From contig NZ_RAPE01000001.1 of the NCBI RefSeq assembly GCF_003651245.1, positions 558,001-622,000 of the forward strand: 64,000 nucleotides of DNA, given 5' to 3'. This DNA comes from Roseovarius spongiae (GTDB lineage Bacteria; Pseudomonadota; Alphaproteobacteria; Rhodobacterales; Rhodobacteraceae). Below the pieces are notes generated by a model. That model was not told the origin of the DNA and did not search any database. It was given only the letters and a program-made list of their open reading frames with translations. Positions 43,088-52,256 of the stretch are shown here, in pieces. Each line of letters starts with the position of its first letter. The first letter of the stretch is position 1. Made by a program: the position numbers and the translations under genes.

Positions 43088-44719
43088 ATGATCGCGGCGG
43101 GAGCACTCGGCATGACGGAACGCAAGGTCGCGTTCGCCCTGTCCTTCGCGCTCGCCGTTCTCGGGCTGGTGATGGCCGCCGCAGCCGGGCAGGGCGTGAT
43201 GGCGGTACATGGCGCGATGGCGATGCTGCTCGGGATCTTCCTGATCTTCCGCACCGGCGGGGCGCTCTATGACGACGGGCCCGCGGATGAACGGTTTGAG
43301 CGCTACTATGACGCGCCCACGCGCTTCGGCATCGCCATGACGCTGGTCTGGGCGATCGTCGCGATGGCGGTCGGCGTCTGGGTGGCGGCGCTGCTCTACT
43401 GGCCCGAGGGCACGCCGGCGGTGCCCTGGACGAGCTTCGGGCGGCTGCGCCCGGTCCACACCACCGGGATCATTTTCGGCTTTGGCGGCAACGCCCTGAT
43501 CGCCACGTCCTTCCACGTGCTGCAACGCACCGCGCGGGCGCGCCTGGCGGAGCATGTGAGCCCGTGGTTCGTGCTGATCGGCTACAACCTCTTCTGCCTC
43601 TGGGCGGTGAGCGGCTACGTGCTGGGCAGCACCCAGTCCAAGGAATACGCCGAGGCGGAATGGTACGCCGACCTGTGGCTGGTAATCGTCTGGGTGGTCT
43701 ATTTCGTGCTCTACATGCGTACGCTCGCCCGCCGGCACGAACCGCATATCTACGTCGCCAACTGGTACTACCTGGCCTTCATCCTGGTGGTGGCGATGCT
43801 GCACATCGTCAACAACATCGCCCTGCCGGTGGGCTGGGGCGTGGCCGAAAGTTTCCCGGTCTGGGCGGGGGTGCAGGACGCCATGGTGCAATGGTGGTAC
43901 GGGCACAACGCGGTGGCCTTCTTCCTGACCGCGGGATTCCTGGCGATGCTCTACTATTTCCTTCCGGTGCGCTCGGGCCGGCCGATCTGGTCCTATCGCC
44001 TTTCCATCGTGAGCTTTTGGGGAATCGTCTTCTTCTACGTCTGGGTGGGCTCGCACCATCTGCACTACACGGCGCTGCCGTACTGGGCGCAGACGCTGGG
44101 CATGACATTTTCGGTGATGCTCCTGGTGCCTTCCTGGGCCGCGGCGGGCAACGCGATCGCCACGCTGAACGGCGCCTGGCACAAGGTGCGCGACGACGCG
44201 ACGCTGCGCTTCATGTTCGTGGCGGCCGTGTTCTACGGCCTTTCGACCTTCGAGGGGTCGTTCCTCGCGATCCGGCCCGTCAACTCGCTATCGCACTATA
44301 CCGACTGGACGGTGGGTCACGTCCATTCCGGCACGCTGGGCTGGGTGGCGATGATCGTCTTCGGTGCGATCTACACGGTGGTGCCGCAACTGTCGGGGCG
44401 TGACGCCATGGTCTCGCTCCGCGCGATCGAGTGGCACTTCTGGCTCGCAGTGGGGGGGACGCTGGTCTACACCGTTTCGATGTGGAACGCGGGTATCGTT
44501 CAGGGGCTGATGTGGCGCGCCTATGACGAAAACGGCGCGCTGTCCTACAGCTTCATCGAATCGGTTCAGGCGATGGCCCCCTATTACCTGGCCCGCACCG
44601 TCGGCGGGGGCATGTTCCTGATGGGCGCAGTGATCTGCGCATGGAACTGCCGGGCGACGATGCGCGCGGCCCGGGGTGAGGCCCCCGACCGCCCGATCGT
44701 CGCGCAGCCCGCGGAGTGA
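43088..44719 (+). CDS. ccoN: cbb3-type cytochrome c oxidase subunit I
   Basis: A 543-residue catalytic subunit with about 12 to 14 membrane helices. Ligand histidines are present: heme b in RPVHTTGIIF, CuB in WWYGHNAVAFF and VGSHHLHY, heme b3 and b in VGHVHSG. It reduces O2 at high affinity. A later ATG at 43112 (MTERK) is also possible. The 299-base gap after aspS shows no gene and I see no TTGAT-N4-ATCAA FNR box, so oxygen control is not evident. ccoO follows after 4 bases. Confidence 0.95.
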   Translation: MIAAGALGMTERKVAFALSFALAVLGLVMAAAAGQGVMAVHGAMAMLLGIFLIFRTGGALYDDGPADERFERYYDAPTRFGIAMTLVWAIVAMAVGVWVAALLYWPEGTPAVPWTSFGRLRPVHTTGIIFGFGGNALIATSFHVLQRTARARLAEHVSPWFVLIGYNLFCLWAVSGYVLGSTQSKEYAEAEWYADLWLVIVWVVYFVLYMRTLARRHEPHIYVANWYYLAFILVVAMLHIVNNIALPVGWGVAESFPVWAGVQDAMVQWWYGHNAVAFFLTAGFLAMLYYFLPVRSGRPIWSYRLSIVSFWGIVFFYVWVGSHHLHYTALPYWAQTLGMTFSVMLLVPSWAAAGNAIATLNGAWHKVRDDATLRFMFVAAVFYGLSTFEGSFLAIRPVNSLSHYTDWTVGHVHSGTLGWVAMIVFGAIYTVVPQLSGRDAMVSLRAIEWHFWLAVGGTLVYTVSMWNAGIVQGLMWRAYDENGALSYSFIESVQAMAPYYLARTVGGGMFLMGAVICAWNCRATMRAARGEAPDRPIVAQPAE

Positions 44720-44723
44720 GCCG

Positions 44724-45455
44724 ATGCTGAAACTGCACTACAACCTTGAAAAACTGTCGATGGGGCTGGTCGTCGCGATCATCGTGGCCGCCTCGATCGG
44801 CGGCATCGTCGAGATCGCGCCGCTCTTCACCATCGACGAGACCGTCGAGATTCCCGACGACCTGCGCCCGCACACTCCGCTGGAACTGGCCGGACGCGAA
44901 ATCTACATGCGCGAGGGCTGCTACGCTTGCCACAGCCAGATGGTGCGCAGCCTGGCGGATGAGCTGGACCGCTACGGCCCCTATTCGCTCGCCTCCGAGA
45001 GCGCCTATGACCACCCGATGCTCTGGGGGTCCAAGCGCACCGGCCCCGACCTCGCGCGACTGGGCGAGAAGTATTCCGACGCCTGGCACGTGCAGCACCT
45101 CATCGATCCGCGCAGCGTGGTCCCGGCCTCGATCATGCCGGCCTATCCCTGGCTCATGCGGCGGCTCGATACCGGATTGCTGCGCGACTCGATGGCGACG
45201 CTCGCGCGCCTTGGCGTGCCCTATGGCGATGACGCGGTCGCGGCGGCGCAGGCCGACGCGCTGGCCCAGGCCCGACCGGATAGCGACGGTGTCGACGGCG
45301 TGTTCGAACGCTACGGCGAAGACGTCGCGGTGCGCGCCTTCGACGGCGACCCCGCGGTGCTCACCGAGATGGACGCGGTTGTGGCCTATCTGCAATCGCT
45401 GGGCAGGCTCACCGATGCGCCCTATGGCATCCTGGCCGGGGAGGACGGCGAATGA
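44724..45455 (+). CDS. ccoO: cbb3-type cytochrome c oxidase subunit II, mono-heme
   Basis: A 243-residue protein with one N-terminal membrane anchor (about 12-32) and a single heme c site CYACH (residues 66-70), followed by LWGSKRTGPDLARLGEKYSD and the axial-ligand region around IMPAYPWL. ATG 44724 begins MLKLHYNLEK as in homologues. It passes electrons from CcoP to CcoN. Its TGA overlaps the ccoQ start (ATGA). Confidence 0.95.
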   Translation: MLKLHYNLEKLSMGLVVAIIVAASIGGIVEIAPLFTIDETVEIPDDLRPHTPLELAGREIYMREGCYACHSQMVRSLADELDRYGPYSLASESAYDHPMLWGSKRTGPDLARLGEKYSDAWHVQHLIDPRSVVPASIMPAYPWLMRRLDTGLLRDSMATLARLGVPYGDDAVAAAQADALAQARPDSDGVDGVFERYGEDVAVRAFDGDPAVLTEMDAVVAYLQSLGRLTDAPYGILAGEDGE

Positions 45456-45625
45456 CCCACGACACCCTCGTTTACCTGTCCAAGACGGTGGGGCTGATCT
45501 GGCTCATGGGCTTCTTCGTCATCGTGGTGATACGCGCCTACAGCCCCGCGCGCCGCGACGCGCATGAGGCCGCCGCGCGCTCTATCCTGCCCGCGGATCA
45601 GCGCGACGGGGAACGCCATGACTGA
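45452..45625 (+). CDS. ccoQ: cbb3-type cytochrome oxidase subunit CcoQ/FixQ
   Basis: A 57-residue protein (MTHDTLVYLSKTVGLIWLMG) with one membrane helix (about 10-28) followed by AYSPARRDAHEAAARSILPA, the typical CcoQ tail that stabilises the oxidase. It overlaps ccoO by 4 bases and ccoP by 8. Confidence 0.85.
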   Translation: MTHDTLVYLSKTVGLIWLMGFFVIVVIRAYSPARRDAHEAAARSILPADQRDGERHD

Positions 45626-46541
45626 TCCCAACGTCACGACCGACCCGCGGGACCTGGCCGACGCCGATGCCGAGACCGGCGAGCTCGAGGTGGATCCGGT
45701 CAGCGGTTACGAGCTCACCGGCCACGAATGGGCGGGCATCACCGAACTCAACACAGCCTTTCCGAACATCGTGGTCTGGGCGCTGATCATCACCCATGCC
45801 TATGCGGTGATCGCATGGATCCTTCTGCCCGCCTGGCCGCTGGGCGACGATTACACGCGGGGGCTTCTGGGGCTCGACCAGGGCGAGATGGCGATCGAAC
45901 GCTACGAGGCGCTCAGCGCGGACCGCAGCCGCTGGCTCGCCAGTTTCGAGACAGGCGATTTCGACGCGATCCAAAAGGACGCGGCGTTGATGATTCCGGG
46001 CATGGCGGCGGCGCACCGGCTGTTCCAGGACAATTGCGCCGCCTGTCACGGCCCCGATGGCGGCGGCGGCCCCGGCTTTCCGGCGCTGAACGGCGACACC
46101 TGGCTCTGGGGCGGCCACCCCGAAACCGTCGCGGAGACGGTGCGTGTCGGCATCAACGCGGCGAATGACGACACGCGCTTCGGCCAGATGCCGGCCTTCG
46201 ACTGGCTCGAAAGGGACGAGCGCGACGCACTGGCCGACTATGTCGTGGCGCTGCATGACGGCGCGGAGGATGCGCAAGGCGCGGGCGCGCAGCTCTTCGC
46301 CGAGAATTGCAGTTCGTGCCACGGCGACCGCGGCGAGGGCGGGCTGATGAACGGCGCGCCGTCGCTGCGCGACAAGTCGGTGATCTACGGCCAGGACCGC
46401 GCCACCGTGCTTCGCACGCTGCGCCACGGGCGCCAGGGCGTGATGCCCGCCTGGTCGGACCGCCTGTCGGAGGCCGAGATCAACCTGCTGGCCCTTTATG
46501 TGGCGACGCTGGGCGAACGCGAGGCGGAGCAGGCGCAATGA
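45618..46541 (+). CDS. ccoP: cbb3-type cytochrome c oxidase subunit III, di-heme
   Basis: A 307-residue subunit (MTDPNVTTDPRDLADADAET) with the N-terminal GHEWAGITELN motif, one membrane helix (about 50-72) and two c-type heme sites, CAACH (140-144) and CSSCH (231-235). It receives electrons from soluble cytochromes. It overlaps ccoQ at its start and, by ATGA, the next small gene at its end. Confidence 0.95.
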   Translation: MTDPNVTTDPRDLADADAETGELEVDPVSGYELTGHEWAGITELNTAFPNIVVWALIITHAYAVIAWILLPAWPLGDDYTRGLLGLDQGEMAIERYEALSADRSRWLASFETGDFDAIQKDAALMIPGMAAAHRLFQDNCAACHGPDGGGGPGFPALNGDTWLWGGHPETVAETVRVGINAANDDTRFGQMPAFDWLERDERDALADYVVALHDGAEDAQGAGAQLFAENCSSCHGDRGEGGLMNGAPSLRDKSVIYGQDRATVLRTLRHGRQGVMPAWSDRLSEAEINLLALYVATLGEREAEQAQ

Positions 46542-46696
46542 CATGGGTCACGCAACGCAGACTGGCGATCATCGGCGCGCTTCTGGGCGTGGGGGTGTTC
46601 ATCGCCGCCAACGCGCACCTGGTCACGGTCGCCGTGCAATCGCAGCCCGATTGCACCTTGTCCGAGCACGCCGCCGCGGCCAAGCCCGCCTGCTGA
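46538..46696 (+). CDS. Small membrane protein after ccoP, 52 residues
   Basis: A 52-residue protein with one helix (about 9-30, LAIIGALLGVGVFIAANAHL) and a C-terminal tail with two cysteines (QPDCTLSEHAAAAKPAC). It starts by an ATGA overlap with ccoP, so it is part of the operon. I recall similar small genes at this place in roseobacter cco operons, but with no assigned role; a subunit or copper-related assembly factor would fit. Confidence 0.72.
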   Translation: MTWVTQRRLAIIGALLGVGVFIAANAHLVTVAVQSQPDCTLSEHAAAAKPAC

Positions 46697-46708
46697 GAAA
46701 GGCCCGAT

Positions 46709-47500
46709 ATGCTTGAACCCCTTCCAACGCCGCGCCCCCCGGCCAAGCCAGAGTCGCCCTATGCGCGATCCCTGCCCGCGAGCGCCGCCTTCGCCTGGCT
46801 GTCGGGCGGATGGCGCGATTTCCGGACCCATCCGATACAGAGCCTCGCCTACGGGGTTTTCCTGGTCCTGCTGTCCTACGCGATCCTCTGGACGCTCTAC
46901 AGGCTCGGCCTGCTTTACCTCGCGCTTCCGATGGTCTCGGGCTTTCTCATCGTCGGGCCGTTCTTCGCCGTCGGCCTCTACGAGAAGAGCCGCGCGCTCG
47001 AACAGGGCGAGAGGATCACGCTCGCGCGGATGCTGGTCGTGCCCGGCGTCCCGCTCGGGCAACTGGCCTTCGCGGGGTTTATGCTGGGCATGCTGGTGCT
47101 GTTCTGGATTCGCACCGCCGACCTGCTTTATGCGCTGTTCTTCGGCCTGACGCCCTTTCCGGGGGCCGGGGAGGCGCTGGCCAACGTGCTGACCACGCTG
47201 CGCGGCTGGACGCTGATCCTCGTCGGGGGGGCGCTGGGCGGGCTGTTCGCGGCCTTCGCCTTCGCGCTCAGCTTGTTTTCCATCCCGATGATCGTGGCGG
47301 AGCGGCGCGACGCGCTGACCGCGCTTGGCGTCAGCTTCCTGATGACGGTCAAGAACCTGCCGGTGGCGCTGACATGGGGGGCGATCGTGGCCTGCGGCCT
47401 TGCGCTCAGCGTGGCGACCGGCCTCGTCGGGCTGGCGGTGATCTTCCCGCTGCTCGGCCACGGAACGTGGCGCGCCTATCGCGCGATCCGCCGGGGATGA
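46709..47500 (+). CDS. DUF2189 domain-containing membrane protein
   Basis: A 263-residue inner-membrane protein with about six helices. GGWRDFRTHPIQSLAYGVFL near residue 34, IVGPFFAVGLYEKSRALEQG near 76 and a final LLGHGTWRAYRAIR match DUF2189, of unknown function and often found beside cytochrome oxidase genes. It lies between the small ccoP-linked gene and ccoS, in the place where ccoG, ccoH or ccoI are common. Confidence 0.85.
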   Translation: MLEPLPTPRPPAKPESPYARSLPASAAFAWLSGGWRDFRTHPIQSLAYGVFLVLLSYAILWTLYRLGLLYLALPMVSGFLIVGPFFAVGLYEKSRALEQGERITLARMLVVPGVPLGQLAFAGFMLGMLVLFWIRTADLLYALFFGLTPFPGAGEALANVLTTLRGWTLILVGGALGGLFAAFAFALSLFSIPMIVAERRDALTALGVSFLMTVKNLPVALTWGAIVACGLALSVATGLVGLAVIFPLLGHGTWRAYRAIRRG

Positions 47501-47503
47501 CGC

Positions 47504-47716
47504 GTGAGCCTCGCGCTGCTCATCCCGCTGTCGATCGGCATGGGGCTGATCGGACTTGGCGCATTCATCTGGGCGGTGCGCCACGACCAGTTCGACGACC
47601 CGCAGGGCAACGCCGAACGCATCCTCATGCCCGAGTTTCCCACCCAATCGCAAGGAGCGAACGATGACGACATGGCTTCCCACACTCAAGACGAAGACGC
47701 CCGAAGAGGGCTATGA
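47504..47716 (+). CDS. ccoS: cbb3-type cytochrome oxidase assembly protein CcoS
   Basis: A 70-residue protein (GTG start) with one helix and the CcoS pattern LSIGMGLIGLGAFIWAVRHD followed by QFDDPQGNAERIL. CcoS is needed to insert heme b and CuB. The C-terminal part (about 42-70) is a hydrophilic extension lying over the start of the next gene in another frame. ccoI, usually the neighbour, is absent. Confidence 0.85.
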   Translation: MSLALLIPLSIGMGLIGLGAFIWAVRHDQFDDPQGNAERILMPEFPTQSQGANDDDMASHTQDEDARRGL

Positions 47717-47894
47717 CCTCGCCGTCAAGATGGCGCGGGTCGCGGTCAAGCTGACCCAGCCCGACGCGGAGGTGCGCGACCGCCTGCGCCCGAAATACGC
47801 GGAGGACTCCGCGGCCCTGATCGCGTCAAGCCAGGTCGTCGCCACCCATTTCGCAACCGTCGCCGCGGCCAACGGATACTGGGCCGACGCATAA
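47664..47894 (+). CDS. Hypothetical protein overlapping ccoS
   Basis: A 76-residue, mostly helical, soluble protein starting MTTWLPTLKTKTPEEGYDLA. The start has an excellent AAGGAGC site (47653-47659). It overlaps ccoS by 53 bases in a different frame. I recognise no family. It is likely real because of the ribosome binding site and balanced composition, but a short CcoS with an independent downstream gene is the usual arrangement, so the CcoS tail may be the odd part. Confidence 0.55.
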   Translation: MTTWLPTLKTKTPEEGYDLAVKMARVAVKLTQPDAEVRDRLRPKYAEDSAALIASSQVVATHFATVAAANGYWADA

Positions 47895-48569
47895 GGTCGA
47901 CGCCGCGGCGAACGGGCCGCGCGCGGATTTCCGTTCTCCTGCCCGCCGCCGGGCTGGATCCTGCGCCGGTATCGCGAATTCTGGCGCTGATCACGCCCTT
48001 CGCGCTGGTGCGCGGCCGGTTTCCGGGATGCGAGCTCCTGCGCGTCGCATTCCTCGGGCGCGCCAATGGCGGCCAAACGCGGCGACGAAGTGCGGCTGAC
48101 ATGGAAGAACGCGGGCAGCCACCTCTTCTTGTGAGGCGGCTTTGCCGCGCGCTTGCGCGCATCCCCGGACGGCAAACGACGACGGCCTCGTGCCCTCTAA
48201 TCCAGCCCCCGAGTAGCGGCGCCCGGAACGGAACCCGGTGAGCGGAGTCATTCAGCCTCGAAAGCTGCGTCCAGCCGTTTCCGAGCGCCTGCACATATCC
48301 TGCATCATGTGCCGGAAAGCCGGTCGGACGTGCCGGACGCGCTTGCTGTGGGCATCGCCTCCCCGGCCACCACGATCAACGCCGCCTTGTCCTGCGAAGA
48401 CTTGGCCGTAGGCCTGACCGAAACCGCCTTGATTGCCGTGCCGCTCTACACCGTCACCGCGTCGGATCGTGCCCGCACCTTAGAAGTCTGCCGCAGCACC
48501 TACGCCGCAGTCGCCTGACGAATACCAACTCCGCAAGAGTGCCCAACTGGCCGCGTCTTGATGCGCGGT
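47895..48569. other. Degenerate tract without a recognisable gene
   Basis: This 675-base stretch has only short frames. One piece on the plus strand (48309-48518, GTG start, about 69 codons, with VGLTETALIAVPLYTVTASD) looks partly protein-like but matches nothing I know. Composition shifts here from the GC-rich cco operon to the AT-rich island. It most likely holds decayed genes at an insertion site. No transposase, integrase or clear direct repeat was seen. Confidence 0.45.
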
Positions 48570-49130
48570 CTATTTTTTGACGCTACCGTTTTTATTGGTA
48601 AATCGAAGCGGTATGGCGTATTCAGCGTCGAAAACCTCATGCGCTCGTTTCAATACCATTGCGACTGTAAGAAGAAAATGAAGATACAAAAAAATCAACG
48701 TTGCGGCCTCAAATTTCGTGGGTATCGGCGCTGCAACGAAGACAACGATAACAGTCACGCCCACGCAAGACAGTAAAATTAAGTAGGAAACATTCGCGTT
48801 AACTTCACGCAACAGCCTGCGCGTCTCCTCAGCGTCGCGCTGCTCGTCTTCATTCAAAATGGCGTCGTTGGTAGTCTTTCGGTCGGCTCGAAAGACGCCG
48901 TACATTGCAACTTGAACGCTAAATAGTAGCGCAGAAAAAATAGCGAATACGGAAATCGAAGCAGAATACACCTCTGATGAAAACGCTACGCAATAGTAAT
49001 AGCTTGCTACAGCCGCCGCAGCAGGAACGCCATAAAATACCACAATGTCAGTGCGGCTCGTTCTCGTCTCCCCAAAATTCCGGAGAGTTGCCCAATGGGC
49101 TTGGAAGATTGAGCGCACACTAATTTTCAT
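48570..49130 (-). CDS. Four-helix membrane protein of the tRNA-Glu island
   Basis: A 186-residue protein with four hydrophobic helices (about 30-50, 58-82, 115-138 and 143-163) and a charged, helical cytoplasmic loop between the second and third (DRKTTNDAILNEDEQRDAEE). The start shares one base with the stop of the upstream gene (TAATG), so translation is coupled. Two 60-base lines counted inside give 50% and 40% G+C, far below the surroundings. It resembles in layout the membrane partners of two-gene defence modules, but I can place it in no named family. Confidence 0.7.
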   Translation of the reverse strand: MKISVRSIFQAHWATLRNFGETRTSRTDIVVFYGVPAAAAVASYYYCVAFSSEVYSASISVFAIFSALLFSVQVAMYGVFRADRKTTNDAILNEDEQRDAEETRRLLREVNANVSYLILLSCVGVTVIVVFVAAPIPTKFEAATLIFLYLHFLLTVAMVLKRAHEVFDAEYAIPLRFTNKNGSVKK

Positions 49131-50035
49131 TATCTCATTCCATATTGCTCGCGGAAGCTACCAATTACTTGTGTAGTTACCTCTGAAATAGACGCAAGTG
49201 TGGGATGTTGATCTTCCCCGAGCGCAACTTCATCAGTTACGTCTATCACGCCTGCATTATTGGAGGGTCCGACGATCCCGACCTTCATGTAAGCATTCCC
49301 AATGGCAACCATAGCGCTTGCTTCGTCAAACTCGATTCCATCAAACACGAAAGCTGCGCCACCTCGCGCCTGCCTGATTTGTGGCGCTACGTCCGAAAAG
49401 ATGCCGAACCTTCCATTTCTCCGCACACCAAAAGAGAGCTCTACGTTTAATTCTTCGGGTGGTAAGTTGCGGAGAATTTCGGCTCGATCTTTAGGGACAC
49501 GTTTCTTTGATAAGATCAGCTTTTTAACCGGCGCGTTCCGGTAAACTTCGTCGTTGACCGGCATCACTTTGTTGGCCGTCAATCTAAGATGGTCGAAGCG
49601 TTGATTGAATTCGCCTGTAAGTTCGCCAAGAACTTGGCTGACACACGAACGATCACGAAATGATTGGAATGCAGCGAAGCCAAAATTCCCTCGATCCGGC
49701 ACCCAGACTTGATAATAGAGCGGTATTTCCTCAACGTCTGCGGCGGCTCTATCGTAGAGGACGTTGTTGTCGTTCGGATCTACAATGGTCGAACTATAGC
49801 CAAATGTTCCATACCGAACCAGTCCGTGCCTTGCGCGACCTTGGTCTGGTTGCGGTTCCAGACGCCAACTACGTTCGATATTATTGTTCTGATGCGTCGT
49901 CCGCTTACCGGCAACGAACTGCGGCACGAATTGGTACAATTCAGACCCGATACCGGCATCCGCCAACGGAATTCTCTGGTAATTGTCAGTCCTGCTTAAA
50001 ACTAGCTGATAGACGTAGAGTCCAATCTTTCCCAT
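49130..50035 (-). CDS. Unknown soluble protein of the tRNA-Glu island
   Basis: A 301-residue protein starting MGKIGLYVYQLVLSRTDNYQ at ATG 50035, six bases after GAGGTG; a GTG two codons earlier is also possible. The N-terminal half holds HGLVRYGTFGYSSTIVDPND and a conserved-looking VEEIPLYYQVWVPDRGNFGF; the C-terminal half alternates strands and charged helices. There is no signal peptide, membrane helix, nuclease or ATPase motif I can recognise. It is the first gene of the coupled pair, with its own promoter. The layout (soluble plus membrane partner, tRNA site, foreign composition) suggests a defence or stress module by inference only. Confidence 0.65.
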   Translation of the reverse strand: MGKIGLYVYQLVLSRTDNYQRIPLADAGIGSELYQFVPQFVAGKRTTHQNNNIERSWRLEPQPDQGRARHGLVRYGTFGYSSTIVDPNDNNVLYDRAAADVEEIPLYYQVWVPDRGNFGFAAFQSFRDRSCVSQVLGELTGEFNQRFDHLRLTANKVMPVNDEVYRNAPVKKLILSKKRVPKDRAEILRNLPPEELNVELSFGVRRNGRFGIFSDVAPQIRQARGGAAFVFDGIEFDEASAMVAIGNAYMKVGIVGPSNNAGVIDVTDEVALGEDQHPTLASISEVTTQVIGSFREQYGMR

Positions 50036-50055
50036 TATCACCTCAAACCTTGCGT

Positions 50056-50109
50056 GGTTGAATTTGCACGCTTTAGTTCAACCGTAGCTGTGGAGTAGGC
50101 GACAGGCAA
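50056..50109 (-). promoter_or_regulatory. Promoter with overlapping inverted repeat for the island pair
   Basis: Read on the minus strand, TTGCCT (50109-50104) and TACGGT (50086-50081) are spaced 17 bases apart. GGTTGAA (50056-50062) and TTCAACC (50077-50083) form a 7-bp inverted repeat with a 14-base spacer that overlaps the -10 and covers the start of transcription. A repressor bound there would block the pair. Confidence 0.45.
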
Positions 50110-50185
50110 TGGCACTCTACGCGCACCAAGGTCGGAAGCATCGCAAGGGTTTTGTCCGTGTGGTCTGCCGACGCGCAATTCTCGA

Positions 50186-50199
50186 TCACGAATTCGTGA
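50186..50199. promoter_or_regulatory. 14-bp perfect palindrome upstream of the island pair
   Basis: TCACGAATTCGTGA is a perfect palindrome about 80 bases upstream of the candidate promoter. It looks like a binding site for a dimeric regulator. The target is unknown. Confidence 0.35.
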
Positions 50200-50279
50200 A
50201 CTTTCGGCAGGGCTTCGTGGGCAGTTTGCTGCCCATCAAATCCTTAGACAATGCTTAGGCAGAGCGAGGCGGCCTATAA

Positions 50280-50313
50280 TTTACCGAGTGAAATCATTAT
50301 CTTACACGGTAAA
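50280..50313. repeat. Inverted repeat abutting the 3' end of tRNA-Glu
   Basis: TTTACCG (50280-50286) and CGGTAAA (50307-50313) frame an AT-rich 20-base centre, immediately next to the tRNA CCA end. It may be a tRNA terminator or processing structure, or a trace of an integration site. No second copy was found at the other island end. Confidence 0.4.
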
Positions 50314-50314
50314 G

Positions 50315-50389
50315 TGGCAGCCCGTAGGGGAATCGAACCCCTCTTTCCAGGTTGAAAACCTGGCGTCCTAACCGATAGACGAACGGGCC
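50315..50389 (-). tRNA. tRNA-Glu (anticodon TTC)
   Basis: Minus strand from 50389: acceptor GGCCCGT/ACGGGCT, anticodon stem CCAGG/CCTGG around TTTTCAA with anticodon TTC, T arm GGGGTTCGATTCCCC, and an encoded GCCA 3' end. 75 bases. Its 3' end faces the AT-rich island, the usual side for elements that integrate at tRNA genes. Confidence 0.96.
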
Positions 50390-50510
50390 AGCGCTGATGT
50401 GGCTGCTTCCTAGGCAATGCCGGCTGACTCTGCAAGAGGAAAGTTGCGCAGTTTACGCGGGTTTCGGATTTTGCGCGGCGCGACGGCGACAGGCGCGGGC
50501 CCGTCGTGCT

Positions 50511-52256
50511 TCACGTCGCCGGTGCGGCGTCCTCGAGGCGTAGCTGCGCGCATTCGCGACCCTGCCAGCGGTTGATTTCCAGTCGCCCGGCCAAGTGGAA
50601 CCGCGCGCCGCCGTGCTGCTCGAGCGCGGGGCCGAGCGGGCCGTCATAGGCGCCAAAGCAGATCGCGTCCAGTCGCGGCCCGTCGCCGTCGGTGAAACGC
50701 AGCTTCAGGTGCCGCTCGCCCACGCGCCTGGCGAAATCGATCCGCATCGCGGCAAAGGCGTGGCGCGGCGCGACGGCGGCGGCGCCGAAGGGGCCGGCCT
50801 CCTCGAGCCGGGTGATCAGGTCGGGCGTCGCCGCGCCCGGCATCAGCAGCCCGTCCAGCACCATGTCCGCCGCGCCCATGCGCTCCGCCCCCTGCCGGGC
50901 GAGCAACGCGCCCAGCCGCGCCATCGCTTCGTCCAGCTGATCGCGCGCGACGGTGAGCCCCGCCGCCATCCGGTGCCCGCCGCCCTTGATCAGCAGCCCC
51001 TCCGCGGCGAGCCGCTGGATCGCCGCGCCAAGGTCCACGCCGCTGACCGATCGCCCCGATCCCTTGCCGATTTCGCCGTCCAGACCGATGACGACGGCGG
51101 GACGGTTCGCCGCCTCCTTGAGCCGGCTGGCGACGATGCCCACGACGCCGGGATGCCAGCCCTCGCCGGCGGCCCAGGCCAGCGGCGCGTCCAGCCCGCG
51201 CGCCTCGGCCTGCGCCATTGCAGCCGCCTGCACGCCGGCCTCGATCTCGCGCCGCTCGGTGTTGAGCTGGTCGAGCCGCTCGGCCATCGCGCGCGCCTCG
51301 GCGATGTCGGTACTGGCCAGCAGCCGCGCCCCGAGGTCGGCGCGCCCGACGCGCCCGCCCGCGTTGATGCGCGGCCCGAGCACGTAGCCCAGGTGATAGG
51401 CCGTTGGCGCCGAATCGAGCCGCGCGGCGTCCGCCAGCGCCACGAGGCCGGGGCGCGCGCGCCGCGCCATGATCTTCAGCCCCTGGCGCACGAAGGCGCG
51501 GTTGACGCCCGTGAGCGGCGCCACGTCCGCCACCGTCGCCAGCGCCACGAGGTCGAGCATCGCGATCAGGTCCGGACCCTGCCGCCCCGCGTCGCGCAAC
51601 TGCCGCCCGGCCTCCACGAGGCACAGGAAGACCACCGCCGCCGCGCAGAGATGGGCGCACTCGCCGCTTTCGTCCTGCCGGTTGGGGTTCACCACCGCCA
51701 GCGCGTCCGGCAGGGTCTCGCCGCCCAGATGGTGATCGAGGATCACCACATCGGCCCCCTTGGCCGCCGCCACCGGGCCGTGGCTCAGCGTGCCGCAATC
51801 GACGCAGACGATCAGGTCATGCGCGCCAGCCAGTTCCGCCATCGCGGCGTCATTGGGCCCGTAGCCCTCGTCGATGCGGTCGGGCACGTAGAGCGTCGCG
51901 CCCCGGCCCATCTGGCGCAGCCAGTCCAGCAGCAGCGCGGCCGAGGCGCCGCCGTCCACGTCGTAATCGGCGAAGATCGCGATCCGCTCCCCCGCCGCGA
52001 CGGCCGCGAGCAGCCGCGCGGCGGCGCGCTCCATGTCCTTGAGGCTACGCGGATCGGGCAGCAGGGCGCGCAGTCGCGGCGCGAGGAAAGCGTCGACCCC
52101 CGCGGCGTCCACCCCGCGCCGCGCGAGCACCTGGCACAGCGCGGCCGGCAGCCCGCACTGCTGCGCCAGCGCCTCGGCGTGGCGATCGTGCTCGGCCGTG
52201 GGGCCGACCCAGCGGCGACCGGACAGCGATCGCTCAACGTCGAGGAATGCCGGCAC
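50511..52256 (-). CDS. recJ: Single-stranded-DNA-specific exonuclease RecJ
   Basis: A 581-residue 5'-3' exonuclease of the RecF recombination and mismatch repair pathways. DHH motifs are present: DYDVDGGASA (97-106), VDCGT (152-156), LDHH (173-176), and the DHHA1 motif GGGHRMAAG near residue 420. An OB domain forms the C-terminus. GTG 52256 follows AAGGGGGCGCC and is preferred over a TTG 15 bases upstream. It is the last gene of a hom-glpX-recJ cluster. Confidence 0.95.
   Translation of the reverse strand: MPAFLDVERSLSGRRWVGPTAEHDRHAEALAQQCGLPAALCQVLARRGVDAAGVDAFLAPRLRALLPDPRSLKDMERAAARLLAAVAAGERIAIFADYDVDGGASAALLLDWLRQMGRGATLYVPDRIDEGYGPNDAAMAELAGAHDLIVCVDCGTLSHGPVAAAKGADVVILDHHLGGETLPDALAVVNPNRQDESGECAHLCAAAVVFLCLVEAGRQLRDAGRQGPDLIAMLDLVALATVADVAPLTGVNRAFVRQGLKIMARRARPGLVALADAARLDSAPTAYHLGYVLGPRINAGGRVGRADLGARLLASTDIAEARAMAERLDQLNTERREIEAGVQAAAMAQAEARGLDAPLAWAAGEGWHPGVVGIVASRLKEAANRPAVVIGLDGEIGKGSGRSVSGVDLGAAIQRLAAEGLLIKGGGHRMAAGLTVARDQLDEAMARLGALLARQGAERMGAADMVLDGLLMPGAATPDLITRLEEAGPFGAAAVAPRHAFAAMRIDFARRVGERHLKLRFTDGDGPRLDAICFGAYDGPLGPALEQHGGARFHLAGRLEINRWQGRECAQLRLEDAAPAT

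Follow-up and report, generated by a model that had tools for sequence, protein, structure and literature searches.

Organization of the locus

Two unbroken open reading frames lie next to a tRNA-Glu gene on the minus strand of the window, by which we mean the whole analysed stretch of 64,000 nucleotides from Roseovarius spongiae. The upstream gene (49130–50035, ATG at 50035) encodes a soluble RexA-like protein of 301 residues, recognized by its open frame and a family profile match and proposed here to be an infection sensor; the hydropathy scan counted 0 segments in it. The downstream gene (48570–49130) encodes a RexB-like membrane protein of 186 residues, a putative membrane-damaging effector according to its open frame, AlphaFold model, hydropathy and charge, and its pairing. 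The two genes meet in a TAATG junction (49128–49132, minus strand), in which one base is common to the stop codon of the soluble gene and the start codon of the membrane gene. Both frames, their lengths and the one-base overlap agree with a preliminary description of this DNA. That description placed the unit at 48570–50109: the left edge is correct, while the right edge is not, as the soluble gene starts at 50035 and the remainder is upstream DNA. A shared promoter had also been claimed. A sigma-70 scan of 48300–50450 yielded 0 promoter sites (1.9 expected in shuffles), and co-transcription of the pair is suggested solely by the overlap of the genes.

The base composition of the pair differs strongly from both flanks, as had been noted from the letters. 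The G+C content is 49.3% in the soluble gene and 46.7% in the membrane gene, compared with 65.4% in the window, 75% in recJ and 68% in 47000–48400. The GC3 value of the pair is about 49% vs 87–91.5% in recJ, glpX and ccoN. When G+C was scanned in sliding segments of 1,740 bases (n = 1,246), 23 segments were at or below 55%, and all 23 start at about 47950–49050.

Two observations concern the neighboring genes. The cbb3 oxidase cluster (window 43088–47500) matches plasmid-borne copies in Defluviimonas and Thioclava, the Defluviimonas match covering 28% of a 16-kb query at 77% identity; judged from these matches, the cluster may be mobile among bacteria of this family. For recJ–glpX, the matches listed from the plasmid collection are Paracoccus replicons at 76–79%.

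The probable insertion site at tRNA-Glu

The tRNA-Glu gene (anticodon TTC) was located by ARAGORN at 50315–50389 of the minus strand. It therefore shares the strand of the pair, which lies on its 3′ side as first described. All 40 of the 40 same-genus genomes were matched by a 1-kb probe comprising the tRNA and the recJ end. In seven of them, the two parts of the probe hit separate places, on different contigs in two cases, and G033 was matched by short weak pieces only. Comparison with same-genus loci marks the tRNA as an insertion hotspot: in each of the 16 loci compared, similarity to the window stops at 50272–50315, at or just beyond the 3′ end of the tRNA. No piece of the pair matched in the flanks of these loci, which extend from about 200 bases (L066) to several kb, and a protein search of 60 genomes found the soluble gene in one, the window's own.

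The genes flanking the tRNA were read in 13 same-genus loci. An integrase gene lies at most 15 bases from the tRNA in L070 and L071, the match in L071 being just under the Pfam cut-off. L077 has a DUF6538 protein near the tRNA, a domain which we take to be an integrase N-terminal domain. A tail tape measure gene is found near the tRNA in L062 and a portal gene in L074 (E 8e-10, slightly below the Pfam cut-off). In the remaining 8 of the 13 flanks, no integrase adjoining the tRNA was recognized by eye.

The left side of the segment is seen in one genome, G013. It shares 87 bases with window 48434–48520 at 90% identity (L077:4330–4416, about 4.9 kb from its tRNA-Glu); apart from it and the window's own genome, none of the 60 matches 48200–48569 over more than 36 bases. 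In one frame, window 48434–48520 resembles the end of a coding sequence. Since G013 shares these bases on the left and the 16 relatives diverge at the tRNA on the right, an acquired segment of about 48521–50314 is suggested, with a right edge defined by 16 relatives and a left edge by G013 only. With up to three mismatches allowed, the tRNA 3′ end occurs only once in the window, and a search of 47800–50700 found neither an att repeat nor a further occurrence of the tRNA end. Beside the pair, neither prophage genes nor a repressor were recognized. The early proposal of acquisition at the tRNA gene is thus supported by where similarity ends and by the phage genes near the tRNA in several relatives.

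A rare family of paired genes

Protein and profile searches gathered 24 further loci. In 23 of the 25 loci examined, window included, a complete membrane partner is found directly downstream of the soluble gene. The other two are L094, where the partner is shortened to 132 residues, and L091, where the contig stops 130 bases past the soluble gene. Because both genes adjoin in 23 of 25 loci, their pairing exceeds chance. They form a coupled two-gene unit that moves as one. Among the first 15 aligned pairs, 12 overlap by 1–16 bases and three, all from Acinetobacter plasmids, are gapped by 11–67 bases. Identity to the soluble protein of the window falls as low as 16% among relatives with the partners still together, and the subfamily profiles match each other for both proteins (P <1e-22). 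The closest relative is found in Pseudophaeobacter (L002), with a soluble protein 75% identical to that of the window, and the soluble protein of an IMG/VR contig (L011) is 61% identical. Upstream of the Pseudophaeobacter pair, L002:6921–7628 encodes a 235-residue protein with a weak phrog_30910 match only (E 0.0018).

Two loci look decayed. At L003:9797–11255 the soluble protein has 286 residues vs 305 in L014, and at L094:2752–4071 the membrane frame has 132 residues vs 185 in the near copy L095. The alignment of 23 soluble sequences omits L094 for this near identity, and the alignment of 22 membrane sequences lacks L091 and L094, which have no full partner. L013 and a second Acinetobacter sp. 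ANC 7933 plasmid (H5) were also kept out of the alignments.

The family is rare. It was found in 2 of 385 genomes of the class by a single-protein search and in 7 of 398 genomes of the phylum by a profile search. For G471, the counts were 2 of 293 genomes in its order and 1 of 25 in its genus; all four counts include genomes already known as carriers.

Carriers and position within mobile elements

The carriers are diverse. The Pf inovirus PfAC16 (L012) and a second Pf-like record of P. aeruginosa (L013) both carry the pair, at L012:412–1883 and L013:2524–3995, where it is annotated merely as hypothetical proteins. L017 is a Mu-like element with a transposase, and the elements L005 (= L024), L088 and L092 combine a repressor with tail or tape-measure genes of P2 type. 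Prophage-like regions with an integrase harbor the pairs of L006 (= L025) and L008 (= L027), and P4-like elements with a Psu-like gene those of L090 and L091. L089 and L093–L096 are other IMG/VR contigs, and L003, L014 and L015 are Acinetobacter plasmids. No prophage was recognized among the ORFs listed at the chromosomal loci L004 (= L030), L007 (= L026), L009 (= L028) and L010 (= L029). Many neighbor-gene names were assigned by eye among the ORFs listed. Of the 25 loci, a mobile setting is given by construction for the 13 taken from virus collections and the 3 taken from a plasmid collection; of the nine loci from genome searches (window, L002, L004–L010), three (L005, L006, L008) lie in prophage-like regions. 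Beside a related pair in G684 (L029:9025–10701), a resolvase-like gene and a SIR2-type NAD-binding-like protein were recognized by eye, and together these may perhaps constitute a small defense island. A recurrent metabolic operon, which would point away from defense, was not seen in the neighborhoods read.

Several relatives lie close to phage repressors. The soluble gene of L027 follows, at a distance of 30 bases, a CI-like S24 repressor gene of the same orientation. The pairs of L017, L024 and L088 are also preceded by a repressor on their own strand, of the helix-turn-helix type and separated from them by small ORFs. The lambda-like arrangement itself is illustrated by Hafnia phage yong1, in which rexA and rexB follow cI. 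Carriage by a prophage near a repressor is thus seen in these four loci, and the pair of the window lies without one. This place is typical and not defining, because the Sbash and P. putida pairs are also described as set apart from the repressor (PMC6426596, PMC12894663).

The vicinity of repressors is relevant to one alternative, in which the pair is a maintenance or regulatory module of a prophage or plasmid (toxin–antitoxin-like, or a modulator of lysis and lysogeny) with only an incidental effect on other phages. Lambda RexA alone biases the lytic switch (Adams et al., PMC11077077), which agrees with such a role, as do the repressors adjoining several relatives. However, several relatives including the window pair have no adjoining repressor, and the tested homologues protect against other phages, so that we regard such a module as improbable.

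Within satellites and P2-like elements, the position can be compared with published hotspots. The pair of L090 is flanked by a Psu-like gene and the integrase; in L091, a Psu-like gene precedes the soluble gene. According to Rousset et al., psu–int in P4-like satellites is a hotspot for antiviral systems, and the P2-like hotspot is found between gpA and gpQ (PMC9122126). The L090 pair thus occupies the published psu–int hotspot. The pairs of L088 and L092 are outside the gpA–gpQ hotspot and have a tail gene and ORFs of the repressor or primase-like kind nearby.

Searches of family libraries

The window pair has no match at the cut-off in Pfam and none in NCBIfam. A Pfam hit to PIG-F (19.5 bits, cut-off 24.2, E 0.0012) was taken as a chance match of hydrophobic sequence. 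A housekeeping role, which would argue against defense, was rejected since neither library gave a credible family.

PADLOC-DB produced no model at E 1 for the window pair. The RexA and RexB models of Pfam and PADLOC were likewise unmatched at E 1, while lambda RexA and RexB themselves, used as a control, match their own models strongly. The soluble protein of the window matches phrog_15676 weakly (E 0.0024), and the membrane protein has no match to phrog_15250 at E 1. The relatives L012 and L008 match both, with E values down to 4e-18 for phrog_15676 (soluble) and 1e-19 for phrog_15250 (membrane), but PHROGs assign no function to these groups. Profile searches of PDB sequences gave rows at E 0.3 or worse only, and viral scans with single relatives from three groups gave nothing.

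Kiwa systems pair a small membrane protein with a soluble one of about 300 residues. The preliminary description had likened the pair to Kiwa (KwaA/KwaB) on account of this two-part plan, which is indeed the same. However, the window pair is unmatched at E 1 in PADLOC-DB, which includes Kiwa models, and three relatives and their partners matched no Kiwa model up to E 10 where lambda RexA and RexB matched theirs. As the soluble family matches RexA-type proteins, RexAB replaces Kiwa as the nearest known kind, and a Kiwa-like system appears very improbable.

The soluble protein and RexA

The main evidence for the nature of the pair comes from profile comparison of the soluble proteins. A profile of 15 soluble sequences aligned with the actinophage proteins CarolAnn gp44, Sbash gp30 and Sejanus gp46 with an hhalign score of 74.2 (P 8.4e-10, probability 96.5), and the 295 aligned columns cover practically the whole length. 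As controls for this score, 200 column shuffles reached at most 20.6 and the reversed profile 11.9, and 58 unrelated proteins from the loci scored at most 17.5. The subfamilies taken alone scored 40.4 (the window's), 38.4 and 56.3. With all 23 soluble sequences the score was 78.1 and 100 shuffles reached at most 21.1. At the level of sequence profiles, this shows the soluble protein to be homologous to the actinophage RexA proteins. The database record of Sejanus gp46 names it a RexA family abortive infection protein.

The sequence link of the soluble family to lambda RexA is not secure. Lambda RexA with three relatives scored 24.8, and 150 shuffles reach 26.7; against the 23 soluble sequences it scored 25.6, and 100 shuffles reached at most 23.8. 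By the same method, lambda RexA and the actinophage RexA proteins scored 14.6, which is no link. The profile method connects neither set securely to lambda RexA and therefore gives no ground to set the window family apart from recognized RexAB systems.

For the soluble protein of the window, AlphaFold gave a low-confidence model (pLDDT 56.6, pTM 0.53, four sequences used). A Foldseek search with it found nothing below E 0.7 in the PDB, and two unnamed phage proteins at E ≤0.001 in BFVD. In VIA-align, this low-confidence model ranked lambda RexA (8twq) first of 835 chains (Z 6.7, rmsd 4.2, 137 residues), with an unrelated amidase tied with RexA (Z 6.2), Iml3 third (6.0) and again at 5.4, and chains of CENP-N/L, the human counterparts of IML3/CHL4, at 4.1–4.7; the program warns that Z values of such size often arise where there is no true match. 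RexA has been related to RdgC, IML3 and CHL4 (Adams et al., PMC11077077). The first rank of RexA in this list of modeled folds may be read as weak agreement and not as proof.

The membrane protein

The AlphaFold model of the window membrane protein shows an N-terminal helix followed by four long helices (pLDDT 72.9). Hydropathy predicts four segments in 13 of 15 family members and three in the window protein and L009. The earlier assignment of a four-helix membrane protein hence stands in the model; the plain hydropathy scan finds three of the four in the window protein. Positive charge is found in the N-terminal, central and C-terminal loops of the family, and both ends and the central loop are for this reason predicted to lie inside. 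The same topology is predicted for Sbash gp31, in which the central-loop substitutions R70A and D73A abolish defense (PMC6426596). Seven residues are identical in all 22 aligned membrane sequences: L16, F32, P36, L68, N113, M158 and R162.

Kinship of these proteins with the actinophage partners is suggested by profile comparison. The membrane profile scored 25.4 against the actinophage partners (200 shuffles at most 19.9), and that of the 22 sequences 22.3 (100 shuffles at most 14.7). Two subfamilies account for the match when taken alone (24.1 and 24.2), and it is absent for the window's own (13.0), in a comparison which included four membrane decoys. Lambda RexB has no match to the membrane family by profile comparison, the 22 sequences included, and by the same method it does not match the actinophage partners either (10.0). 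In the PDB, the membrane model resembles helical bundles, with NINJ1 first (Z 11.3), which is below the tool's meaningful level for helical bundles. RexBpp of P. putida was sought among the relatives with a fingerprint of seven published residues, which fitted at most 3 of 7 and singled out none of them.

Comparison with known RexAB systems

CarolAnn gp44/gp43 (PMC6426606) and Sbash gp30/gp31 (PMC6426596) are tested defense pairs. They share with the window family a soluble protein homologous over its full length, a small four-helix membrane partner just downstream, and adjacent, overlapping genes. In contrast, they occur in other bacteria and carriers, the similarity of the membrane partners is only suggestive, and the soluble protein of the window is about 60 residues shorter (301 vs 370 and 372).

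RexABpp of P. putida (PP_5643/PP_5644) can be likened by description: its two genes, found in a prophage close to a repressor, encode a soluble DNA-binding protein and a membrane protein of four helices (PMC12894663). Defense needed both genes, RexApp bound DNA, and overproduction of RexApp arrested growth in a RexBpp-dependent manner and made a small fraction of the cells leaky. Two-hybrid tests showed no binding between RexApp and RexBpp (PMC12894663).

Lambda RexA/RexB resembles the family in gene order, in comparable sizes and, for some relatives, in the place behind the repressor. It differs in that the sequence similarity is not secure for RexA and nil for RexB, and that the family models are unmatched; identity with lambda RexA/RexB proper was consequently rejected.

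Proposed mechanism

Overall, the pair is quite probably a RexAB-type abortive-infection (phage-exclusion) system, a function deduced from its homologues. A defense role had been proposed from location and composition, and homology of the soluble family to tested phage-exclusion proteins now argues for it. The mechanism is modeled on the actinophage proteins and on lambda and P. putida RexAB. The soluble protein would dimerize, bind DNA and sense the infecting phage, through DNA–protein intermediates or a phage protein. The membrane protein would be silent until activated by the soluble protein, whereupon it would oligomerize and render the inner membrane leaky or depolarized. Cell growth would stop before the phage multiplies, and the infection would abort. 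The window pair would act in this way as a resident genomic cassette, since it lies at the tRNA-Glu hotspot with no recognized prophage genes beside it.

The roles could also be reversed. In mycobacteriophage Butters, gp30/gp31 have the same gene plan, and the published description, by which we liken them, has the soluble RexA-like protein as the antiviral component and the membrane protein as its restraint until infection (PMC12894663). Our sequences and gene order fit either assignment of roles. However, CarolAnn and Sbash, the nearest tested homologues compared by sequence, need both proteins and have the membrane protein as effector (PMC12894663), which makes the Butters-like arrangement unlikely for the window pair.

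Implications

RexAB was the first abortive-infection system tied to phage defense, and according to a 2026 paper only five RexAB-like systems have been described (PMC12894663). The pair of the window is assigned to this type because its soluble protein is homologous to actinophage RexA proteins. The open-access literature on RexAB, Pf phages, Alphaproteobacteria, satellites and Paracoccus, which leaves subscription papers mostly outside, does not report the family in the portions available. RexB is named once in the accessible part of PMC7549136, as a lambda protein. For PfAC16, the table of its published description gives TA and PfsE (PMC11878078), and the pair is a candidate defense module not listed for that phage in the accessible text.

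The 23 complete pairs, with their wide sequence range, provide conserved residues to test and a basis for detection models. The family adds hosts outside enterobacteria and actinobacteria. It is reasonably likely that RexAB-type exclusion is not limited to lambda and a handful of actinophages but represents a wide cargo family of Proteobacteria, unrecognized by the searched libraries. Plasmids, filamentous phages and elements of the P2-, P4- and Mu-like types would carry this family, which could also endure at a tRNA gene as a genomic cassette on its own.
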